From IMG/VR virus record IMGVR_UViG_3300023087_000115, positions 1 through 23,111 of that record: a stretch of DNA of 23,111 bases. One strand, given 5' to 3'. Shown piece by piece: positions 4,810 through 17,874 of the stretch. This DNA is from a virus. How positions within the stretch are numbered: position 1 is the stretch's first letter; every line of letters begins with the position of its first letter. The notes beneath the pieces were generated by a model. That model made no database searches and was not told the origin of the DNA. It saw only the letters and a program-made list of their open reading frames with translations. Position numbers and translations under genes: made by a program.

Positions 4810-5010
4810 ATGACAGGATTTATGAAGAAAAGAAAAGGTAAATATATTGCATATGACGCCAATGGAAAGGTGCTCATAATCTCACGATCTTTGACTGTAT
4901 GTAAGGAAGTCTTAGCGAGTATAATGAATAATGAAAGAGAACATTTGAATGAATCAGAAAAAGAAAAATATTATGCAAGGATACGACAAGAAGAAACATC
5001 CGATACTTGA
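4810..5010 (+). CDS. Small hypothetical phage protein
   Basis: 66 residues, basic N-terminus (MKKRKGKYIAYDANGKVLII), then a helical acidic tail. The ATG at 4822 (fifth codon) is an alternative start with AGGA only 3 bases upstream. The 3' part overlaps the next gene by 62 bases if that gene starts at 4949. Function unknown. Confidence 0.55.
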   Translation: MTGFMKKRKGKYIAYDANGKVLIISRSLTVCKEVLASIMNNEREHLNESEKEKYYARIRQEETSDT

Positions 5011-5272
5011 GCTTGAACAGAACATCTTAGACTGTTGGAAAGTCTGTGATGATATTGACTTGGTCTGGAAGGAAATGTATGATGGAAATCCAGAACCAAC
5101 TGAAGATCAGATTGCCAATGCTATGATAGGATTGAATCAGATCTATGAGTGGAAATTTCAGAGACTTTGGAATAATTTCGAAGAAGTCTTGAAGAAGAAT
5201 TCCGAGCCGCCGGATACCCATGAGAATGATGGCGAGAATTGGGAAAAATGGAGATTGAATGATGGAGATTGA
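4949..5272 (+). CDS. Conserved hypothetical phage protein
   Basis: Up to 107 residues. The core HPILELEQNILDCWKVCDDI followed by GLNQIYEWKFQRLWNNFEEV resembles a recurring helical protein of marine T4-like phages with no assigned function. The ATG at 4973 (ninth codon) would reduce the overlap with the preceding gene and is also possible. It is the last gene before a predicted terminator at 5345-5395. Confidence 0.65.
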   Translation: MNQKKKNIMQGYDKKKHPILELEQNILDCWKVCDDIDLVWKEMYDGNPEPTEDQIANAMIGLNQIYEWKFQRLWNNFEEVLKKNSEPPDTHENDGENWEKWRLNDGD

Positions 5273-5463: not shown

Positions 5464-5492
5464 TTGACATTTCATTGCGAATCACTTATATT
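5464..5492 (+). promoter_or_regulatory. Promoter of the structured ncRNA
   Basis: TTGACA (5464-5469), 17 bases, TATATT (5487-5492), preceded by GCCC as in several other promoters of this window. Transcription should start near 5499. No ORF with a ribosome site follows before the terminator at 5751. Confidence 0.8.
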
Positions 5493-5498
5493 AATATA

Positions 5499-5782
5499 TG
5501 TAAGAAGAAAAGATTTTAGACTCTTTTCCTCATATGTCCGTGCGGAGGGCAGGCCACCTGAAAGCACGATCTCTGGTGAATATATTCGCCCGTGAAATAT
5601 CGGTGACGTGAAACCCAGAGATGTTAGTTTCAATCAAACTAGAGCGGCAACGTCAATAAGTCCGTGCGGAGAGATTGGAGATACTAGCTGGGCGTATGAG
5701 GAAAAAAGTTTTTCTTCTTTTCCCTGTCTCCTTTCTATATGGGTAACTTAGAGCAGTCCTTCTTTGGCTGCTCTTTTTTTTT
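5499..5782 (+). ncRNA. Free-standing structured non-coding RNA, unknown class
   Basis: About 280 bases with its own promoter and an intrinsic terminator, and no plausible coding frame. A closing helix joins 5524-5534 to 5695-5705 (11 Watson-Crick pairs) and can extend inward to 5540/5689 with wobbles. Inside, ATCTCTGG pairs with CCAGAGAT (8 bp). TGACGT in that loop matches ACGTCA downstream, giving a likely pseudoknot. TAGTTT-caatc-AAACTA is a hairpin. GTCCGTGCGGAG occurs twice (5536-5547 and 5660-5671), once in the closing helix and once free. It does not match RNase P, 6S, tmRNA or group I intron cores that I know. Confidence 0.75.
5751..5782 (+). terminator. Rho-independent terminator of the ncRNA
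   Basis: GAGCAG (5751-5756) pairs with CTGCTC (5768-5773) over an 11-base loop, followed by nine T's (5774-5782). Confidence 0.85.
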
Positions 5783-5865: not shown

Positions 5866-6138
5866 ATGAGTATCGAATCATTAGCAGAAATTGCTGAATT
5901 AAATGCCTTACATGGAGTCTCTCCAGAAGAAGCTAGATTGAAATTCTTTGAGAATTTAAATGCTTCAATCATCAGAGATTACTTTGAAAAAGATATGGCA
6001 TGTCCCTGTGATGAATGCCCATTAAGAGACTCTTGTGCAGAGAGTTATGCAGAGTGTTCAGCATTTAGAAACTGGGCAGTAAAAGGACAATACGATGAGG
6101 CCACAATTGGAAAACATTTGAGAGTTCCTAAAGACTGA
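5866..6138 (+). CDS. Cysteine-rich conserved phage protein
   Basis: 90 residues. An N-terminal helical part is followed by a cysteine cluster near residues 46-64 (CPCDECPLRDSCAESYAEC) and then AFRNWAVKGQY. The spacing of six cysteines suggests metal binding, zinc or an iron-sulfur cluster; which one cannot be told from sequence. The combination C-x-A-F-R-x-W-x-x-x-G-x-Y is familiar from uncharacterised small phage proteins. It has its own promoter (5804), ribosome site (TAGGAG) and terminator (6166), so it is a single-gene transcription unit. Confidence 0.75.
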   Translation: MSIESLAEIAELNALHGVSPEEARLKFFENLNASIIRDYFEKDMACPCDECPLRDSCAESYAECSAFRNWAVKGQYDEATIGKHLRVPKD

Positions 6139-7735: not shown

Positions 7736-7981
7736 TTACGCAGCAATGTCAACTAAAATCGAGCGAAGATCCGCAGAACGCGAAGGATGTTTCAGTTTCC
7801 GTTCGGCTTTGGCTTGGATTTGACGAATGCGCTCAACAGACAAGTTCATAATGCATCCGATTTCGCCGAGAGTGTGCTGCCCGACACCGTTCAGTCCGTA
7901 GCGCATTCGAATGACACGCTCTTCTCTGGGGGAGAGAGTAAGAAGAGTTGTACGAAGAATGTCTGAGTCGTTCTTAATCAT
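7736..7981 (-). CDS. Stand-alone sigma-70 region 4 domain protein
   Basis: 81 residues that align by eye along nearly their full length with region 4 of RpoD: LTLSPREERVIRMRYGL (residues 14-30) is region 4.1, and HTLGEIGC through the helix-turn-helix to KLKHPSRS (36-69) is region 4.2. Regions 1-3 are absent, so it cannot open a -10 element itself. In E. coli RpoD numbering the recognition helix reads S583-V584-E585-R586, so the -35-contacting Arg584 appears replaced by Val. It could bind the RNA polymerase beta-flap, compete with host sigma, or retarget -35 recognition. It has its own promoter (8039-8010) and the shared AAAGGTGATTCGAA leader. Confidence 0.85.
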   Translation of the reverse strand: MIKNDSDILRTTLLTLSPREERVIRMRYGLNGVGQHTLGEIGCIMNLSVERIRQIQAKAERKLKHPSRSADLRSILVDIAA

Positions 7982-8796: not shown

Positions 8797-8840
8797 GCCC
8801 TTGACTTCTTTGCTCAAATGACTTATATTAGTAGTGTAAG
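8797..8840 (+). repeat. 44-bp direct repeat carrying a promoter (copy 1)
   Basis: Identical base for base to 11580-11623. It contains TTGACT (8801-8806), a 17-base spacer and TATATT (8824-8829). The segment just before it (about 8785-8796) is shared instead with the promoter at 9027. Confidence 0.9.
8801..8829 (+). promoter_or_regulatory. Early-type promoter with conserved leader
   Basis: TTGACT-N17-TATATT, followed by GTGTAAGTAATG and the AAAGGTGATTCGTA leader that ends at the ATG of the 8860 gene. Confidence 0.8.
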
Positions 8841-13006: not shown

Positions 13007-13083
13007 CCGCTCGTAGATCAACTGGATAGATCAACTGACTTCTAATCAGTAGGTTGAGGGTTCGAGTCCTTCCGAGCGGGCCA
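13007..13083 (+). tRNA. tRNA-Arg (anticodon UCU)
   Basis: Complete cloverleaf: acceptor CCGCTCG/CGAGCGG, D stem GATC/GATC, anticodon arm ACTGA-CTTCTAA-TCAGT, T arm GAGGG-TTCGAGT-CCTTC, encoded CCA. It reads AGA/AGG, which are frequent in this AT-rich phage. Confidence 0.95.
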
Positions 13084-17466: not shown

Positions 17467-17492
17467 TATATTTGCAATACTTTAAAAAAGTG

Positions 17493-17523
17493 TTGACATG
17501 TCGTAATAATTGTGGTATAAATA
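17493..17523 (+). promoter_or_regulatory. tmRNA promoter, also a late-type TATAAATA match
   Basis: TTGACA (17493-17498), 17 bases, TATAAA (17516-17521). The -10 extends to TATAAATA (17516-17523), identical to the T4 late-promoter consensus, so the tmRNA could be read both early by host sigma-70 and late by the phage sigma. Confidence 0.75.
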
Positions 17524-17527
17524 AATT

Positions 17528-17850
17528 CGTAATTGTTGATGCAATTCAAAACACATACTGGACTTGGGGGCAGTACCCAACGCCTCCACCATAAATGCAC
17601 TATGTCCTGCTGCATCAGGAAGTTATGCAGAACATAGGTTGCCCACGATGGGACGCCGAAGTTAGTGCATTTTTGATGGGGGCGAACTAGGATCGACAGG
17701 TGAGTAGAGATGAGTGGAGATTACCGTGGTGGCTTACGATATTCGGCCAACTAAACTAAATGCAAACGATAATTTTGCACCTTCTGAGTTCGCTCTAGCA
17801 GCGTAACCACAGGGGGTTGGCCACTCACCTAGCAACAGAAGAAGTGGCGC
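17528..17850 (+). ncRNA. ssrA: Two-piece (circularly permuted) tmRNA
   Basis: The acceptor piece comes first: T arm TTGGG-GGCAGTA-CCCAA (17564-17580), acceptor strand CGCCTCC (17581-17587) and CCA (17589-17591). After an intervening segment (17592-17677) comes the coding piece, with GGGGGCG (17678-17684) pairing to CGCCTCC, then GAACTAGGATCGACAGG. The tag frame GCA...TAA (17762-17806) reads ANDNFAPSEFALAA, an alphaproteobacterial-type tag with an Ala-rich degron end. AGGTGAGT (17698-17705) pairs with ACTCACCT (17823-17830). It would rescue stalled ribosomes and tag nascent chains, with SmpB presumably from the host. Exact 5' and 3' ends are estimates. Confidence 0.93.
17592..17677 (+). other. 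Intervening segment of the permuted tmRNA
   Basis: AAATGCACTA (17593-17602) pairs perfectly with TAGTGCATTT (17663-17672). Inside, CCTG/CAGG (17606-17609/17616-17619) and CTGCAT/ATGCAG (17610-17615/17625-17630) are both possible and form a pseudoknot; CCCA-cga-TGGG follows (17642-17652). It is presumably removed during maturation. Confidence 0.7.
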
Positions 17851-17874
17851 TCATAATAAAAAGGAATAACAAAA

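Follow-up and report, generated by a model that had tools for sequence, protein, structure and literature searches.

A structured RNA family, very likely undescribed, in uncultured T4-like aquatic phages

Which class of RNA is encoded at positions 5500-5782 of a 23-kb IMG/VR viral record (the window, i.e., the whole stretch of DNA analyzed here), and what might it do for the phage that carries it? The initial annotation described a promoter, a structured non-coding transcript of unknown class, and a strong terminator, standing free between two protein-coding units. Near-identical versions of the locus are also present in records of 203, 95, and 30 kb. The largest of these, at 203 kb, belongs to a T4-like virus: it encodes a T4-type major head protein, and its terminase shares 57% identity with the terminase of Methylophilales phage Melnitz and also resembles those of the Kyanoviridae (T4-like cyanophages).

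Transcription unit and comparison with known RNAs

The elements of the proposed transcription unit were all recovered (Table 1). The promoter (TTGACA-17-TATATT at 5464-5492) has 11 of 12 promoter matches and belongs to a family with 11 copies in the 203-kb record (CCCTTGAC...CTTATATTA..GTAAG or close variants), of which none occurred in mononucleotide shuffles; a promoter 98% identical to it lies upstream of a small ORF in another phage. The anticipated terminator is an intrinsic one, no credible ORF was found within 5464-5782, and the folding energy of the RNA (z = -4.07, 0/100 shuffles equally low) agrees with the claim that it is structured. A pyrimidine stretch in its 3' tail (TCTCCTTTCTA, 5725-5745), which we take to resemble the 3' end of alphaproteobacterial 16S rRNA (the anti-Shine-Dalgarno), could pair with Shine-Dalgarno (SD) sequences. 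The same strong promoter family recurs at window positions 8800, 9026, 11583, and 23010, the copies at 8800 and 9026 lying directly before small ORFs. Just upstream of phage promoters, 8305-8790 encodes a 161-aa hydrophobic protein for which no PHROG match was found and which, by eye, resembles a portion of a Na/phosphate cotransporter. An 81-aa protein (7736-7981, - strand) matches sigma-factor PHROGs and may consist solely of a sigma-factor DNA-binding domain.

Table 1. Positions of the RNA element, its parts, and associated features in the window
Feature	Position	Strand	Remarks
Sigma70-type phage promoter	5460-5500	+	GCCCTTGACA-17-TATATTA...GTAAG; transcription start predicted near 5499-5505
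Predicted non-coding transcript, ~283 nt	5500-5782	+	Free-standing between ORFs 4949-5272 and 5866-6138
Possible anti-P1 hairpin	5507-5529	+	GAAAAGA/UCUUUUC, upstream of and overlapping P1 5' strand; p 0.02 vs shuffles
Conserved RNA element (core)	5518-5711	+	Covariance-model match 1-154 of 154
P1 closing helix, 5' strand	5518-5539	+	Partner 5690-5711; invariant ACU 5520-5522, U5537
P2 hairpin	5540-5567	+	GUGC 5540-5543/GCAC 5564-5567; apical loop palindrome GGCC 5552-5555
P3 arm (optional, variable in family)	5569-5622	+	Stem 5569-5576/5615-5622; long version in window
P4 arm	5623-5688	+	GUUAGU/ACUAGC and UUCAAUC/GAUUGGA helices around P5
P5 hairpin	5644-5665	+	Invariant core GCGG-CAACGUCAAUAAGU-CCGU; also in a second RNA architecture of other phages
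P1 closing helix, 3' strand	5690-5711	+	GGAG (Shine-Dalgarno) site of gene-abutting relatives; AAAG in window
Intrinsic terminator	5750-5782	+	9-bp stem at 5750-5774, then T9 tail
tmRNA, alphaproteobacterial-type permuted	17478-17851		Rfam RF01849 and RF04321

Scans of the window RNA and of one relative (L191) against Rfam 15 returned no family at the gathering threshold, in line with the assignment to an unknown class. The best score (21.3 bits against a threshold of 42) was for GcvB and was driven by the terminator; other matches at permissive thresholds reflected chance only, mostly again from the terminator. Group I and II introns and known self-cleaving ribozymes in Rfam gave no match (E up to 10), nor did 6S RNA, tmRNA, RNase P RNA, or SRP RNA at 5464-5782. 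The tmRNA of the window lies elsewhere (Table 1), and tmRNA was also found in other phages that carry the element (L184, L192, L208, and L212). A search of open-licence papers found no description of this RNA family, and we consider it very likely to be new.

The nearest known kind, without relation by model match, is GOLLD/ROOL, large ornate RNAs of phages and prophages that are often located at tRNA islands and form homo-oligomers via kissing loops (PMC12286853); many GOLLD RNAs exceed 800 nt (PMC12286853). Both groups are phage-encoded, have conserved secondary structure, and may adjoin tRNA genes (8/59 distinct copies here), and kissing-loop self-association, proven for GOLLD/ROOL, is predicted here from palindromic P2 loops. 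The present RNA is nonetheless unrelated in sequence and structure, has no Rfam model match, and is shorter (~140-220 nt); moreover, its closing helix doubles as a Shine-Dalgarno site in gene-abutting copies and its P5 hairpin is reused elsewhere. The wcaG, manA, and glnA RNAs of cyanophages, classed in Rfam as cis-regulatory leaders (PMC9964418), are likewise structured RNAs of T4-like aquatic phages, whereas the RNA described here lacks an Rfam match and has varying neighbor genes. Like RNA-based anti-CRISPRs (Racr) and other phage decoy RNAs, it would be a small accessory RNA that offers a conserved hairpin to a host factor; it did not, however, match CRISPR repeats better than expected by chance (CRISPR-DR2, E 2.3, 15.8 bits where the cut-off is 37).

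Family membership, fold, and covariation

Apart from GC-rich repeats of no relation, an exact two-motif scan detected nothing but near-identical copies. A search with a neighboring RNase H-like protein (1565-2098, named by eye) as the query led to contig L064, whose end carries a diverged copy in syntenic position. Relative to the window, this copy has two full compensatory changes in P1, a P3 reduced to a GAAA-capped 5-bp hairpin, and an almost identical P4/P5 arm. A 30-mer pattern from that arm matched 44 viral stretches, and a shorter 20-mer pattern matched at least 120. A single-sequence model (R1) recovered L064 and G036, and a covariance model built from 30 diverse members (R2) recovered at least 90 elements on 90 IMG/VR contigs, with 59 distinct sequences among the matches listed. 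One R1 match (G028, 27 bits) did not reappear with R2 and was rejected as a member. The RNA was not detected in those relatives of the downstream protein (40-60%) that were searched, and promoter-like matches beside them proved to be shared promoters.

At the sensitivity used, distant BLAST searches of 50,697 phage records and 72,556 plasmids were negative, and GTDB genomes yielded only two 20-mers, which are in protein-coding DNA and look like chance. By covariance model or pattern, the element is absent from HTVC008M, Melnitz, S-SRM01, P-SSM4, and P-HM2; it is also absent from the related records G004, G006, G013, G044, and G026, although incomplete records may account for some absences among relatives.

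All members share an architecture of P1, P2, an optional P3, and a long, well-conserved P4/P5 arm, ~140-220 nt in total, to which the window RNA conforms (157.2 bits for the element in the identical record L002:5682-5875). Toward its outer end P1 always has ACU/AGU, and toward its inner end a U-G wobble (U5537-G5692 in the window) is present in 59/59 distinct sequences; the window P1 comprises 22 bp with one C-A mismatch, and is hence slightly longer than the long closing helix that had been proposed. The 8-bp internal stem of the initial annotation is present in the window as the stem of P3, which is dispensable across relatives. A proposed pseudoknot between TGACGT (5604-5609) and ACGTCA (5650-5655) did not survive the comparison: its 5' partner sits in P3, which is absent or cut to a tetraloop hairpin in many relatives, and relatives with a long P3 often read TGTCGT against ATGTCA or ACGTCA at these positions. 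The 12-base repeat GTCCGTGCGGAG does occur at 5536 and 5660, 124 bases apart, with 1/100 shuffles giving two matches at ≤2 mismatches; the copies diverge in relatives, and their exact identity is partly accidental, each lying inside its own conserved segment.

Covariation lends strong support to the secondary structure and, with it, to conservation of the RNA in related phages. In an alignment of the 59 distinct sequences fitted to the covariance model, 97.1% of cells were paired (37.7-47.7% with partners slid), and both sides had changed in 23 of 51 pairs, including 11 of the 22 pairs of P1. The covariation score was 0.255, compared with 0.132 +/- 0.005 for shuffled alignments (0/500 reach it) and ≤0.062 with partners slid. 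A separate MAFFT alignment of 30 sequences gave similar values (96.2% paired, 16 pairs doubly changed, score 0.239), and an independent RNAalifold prediction returned an almost identical set of pairs. Covariation was strongest in P1 and P3 and moderate in the P2 and P4 helices; because the P5 sequence hardly varies among family members, its covariation is seen only via a second RNA context (described below). Scores on the opposite strand reached at most ~29 bits, against 119-172 bits for full elements, which, together with the many G-U pairs, indicates conservation as RNA rather than DNA.

A palindrome occupies a fixed position in all distinct P2 loops except that of L219 (TCGG). Its forms are GGCC, GATC (TGATCA in the common form), CCGG, GTAC (CCGTACGG in two forms), and CCGGCCGG. 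For the GATC, CCGG (except CCGGCCGG loops), and GTAC forms, the element contains no second copy that would allow internal pairing, and self-kissing of two molecules is the simplest reason for the palindrome. A kissing-loop homodimer via P2 is thus plausible from the loop sequences. Tandem second elements in L266 (419-531, - strand) and L273 (~5880-5990, - strand) combine the P1-P2 scaffold with a third domain unrelated to the P4/P5 arm that it replaces, so the scaffold seems to be modular; a dedicated scan for further scaffolds bearing other cargo gave no new ones.

The P5 hairpin (CGGCAAYGUCAAUAAGNCCG) is also found inside a different conserved element of ~47 nt in other phages (CCCCUGCAGUGUGCGUAA-hairpin-UUUCGAUAA), located close to the 3' termini of several genes and single per genome where checked (L253, L256, L260, L265, L271, L278, L283, L286, L299, L301, L314, and others). 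A terminator or the next gene comes after this element, which in L288 and L301 is preceded by a phrog_1250 protein. Its stem covaries (AACGG/CCGUU, ACCGG/CCGGU, AGCGG/CCGCU), and no Rfam match was found for it. A third context of the hairpin, in L263 (2506-2525) and L335, is AAACTCGGCAATGTCAATAAGACCGAATTGGG, directly after an ORF. That unrelated RNAs use the same loop points to a common binding partner.

Copy number, genomic context, and Shine-Dalgarno rule

Each of 28 records with strong matches (up to 204 kb) has one full element, on a single strand, and the P5 hairpin is single in 25/25 records (up to 275 kb, ≤3 mismatches allowed); in the uncultured T4-like aquatic phages that carry it, the family apparently has one member per genome. 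The neighboring gene varies between phages and may be an ORF of several kinds, a tRNA, or nothing. An ORF begins directly after the element in over half of the distinct copies, including those with an ATG 3-5 nt downstream, and a tRNA gene (Thr, Pro, Asn, or Trp) lies 2-5 nt downstream in 8/59. A terminator-like hairpin follows the element in L315, L317, and L329 (a TTGCAC-17-TATAAT promoter picked by eye in L317 was not accepted by the promoter scanner), and L219 has the order promoter, element, tRNA-Trp. The window copy has its own promoter and terminator and is not beside tRNA genes, the tRNA cluster of the window starting at 13,007. Hence, the free-standing arrangement initially described holds for the window copy and is one of several contexts across the family. 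In all classified copies, the element is co-directional with the next gene or tRNA.

The context is reflected in P1. Where an ATG follows 3-5 nt after the element, GGAG is found in the P1 3' strand of 25/25 distinct copies, compared with 0/19 otherwise (0/9 with the ATG ≥7 nt away, 0/10 with a tRNA; Fisher p 7e-13, for sequences that are phylogenetically related and not independent). An upstream hairpin that would compete with P1 was found in ~13/20 SD copies and in 3-4/29 others (Fisher p 5e-4); it is not universal among SD copies and is possibly a local device exposing the SD.

Possible roles of the RNA

These observations can be read in more than one way. The reading that we favor, with some confidence, is an autonomous gene for a trans-acting accessory RNA that homodimerizes and presents P5 to a partner; action as a trans-acting accessory RNA is in itself probable. 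The host transcript differs among phages while the RNA is kept once per genome, which argues for action in trans as RNA, and related phages can lack the element, which suggests an accessory "moron" RNA that is not essential to replication or packaging. Tentatively, the RNA may represent a new class in which a kissing-loop homodimer and a universal hairpin (GCGG-CAAYGUCAAUAAGN-CCGU) capture a host or phage factor, with P1 as a processing site and switchable SD. In tRNA-adjacent and operonic copies, the RNA would probably be excised from a longer transcript, by RNase P at the abutting tRNA or through P1 being opened or cut in the manner of RNase III, the latter route also freeing the SD covered by P1 in gene-abutting copies; the window copy would use its own promoter and terminator instead. 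The mature RNA would then probably homodimerize via the palindromic P2 loop and expose the invariant hairpin P5 for recognition by a conserved partner. Our best guess at the purpose, from the patchy, wandering, single-copy behavior, is host takeover or counter-defense. The targets suggested in the initial annotation (RNA polymerase, ribosomes, or replication) were not supported: complementarity to E. coli rRNA or to tRNA was no longer than in shuffles, and no GC-skew turn, as a sign of an origin, was present at the element locus (117 kb of a 204-kb record).

A cis-acting translational switch or processing signal, in which P1 hides the SD of the next gene, the junction senses a ligand or protein, and an upstream hairpin or terminating ribosome displaces the P1 5' strand, is a rather unlikely alternative, although the SD rule and the enrichment of competing hairpins in SD copies speak for it. 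P1 would cover the SD in most copies with an ORF directly downstream, and the stop codon of the upstream ORF is often ≤6 nt from the element start. However, the window copy has AAAG in place of GGAG and a transcript without a gene, tRNA-abutting copies have no SD, and a single copy per genome is followed by genes that differ among phages; a riboswitch or cis leader class was rejected, as it needs one constant class of downstream gene. Since the RNA is kept whatever the transcript and P1 is tuned to the neighbor, we attribute the function to the RNA as such and regard cis effects as secondary.

Insertion between genes as a mobile or selfish RNA element (ribozyme, intron-like, or MITE-like) would explain the differing insertion sites in related phages, the sharp ends with invariant ACU...AGU, the modular arms, and the tandem second copies in L266 and L273. 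It is improbable given the single copy per genome, the co-direction of classified copies with the next gene or tRNA, P1 ends that covary as an RNA helix and not as a fixed terminal repeat, and the absence of Rfam intron or ribozyme matches. A DNA-level or replication signal (an origin or packaging site) that folds by coincidence would fit a single element of variable position, but is highly improbable in view of the conserved wobble pairs, the strand-specific scores, the SD and tRNA coupling confined to one strand, the lack of a skew turn, and the several relatives without the element.

The novelty claimed here is that of the RNA family. Non-coding genes are poorly known in uncultured T4-like aquatic phages, to which the results add an RNA class of at least 90 members whose structure is supported by covariation, and the rule linking the SD to the closing helix makes the choice between RNA processing and cis control directly testable. 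The once-per-genome presence, shifting position, and reuse of the hairpin imply a common partner, one that is worth finding.
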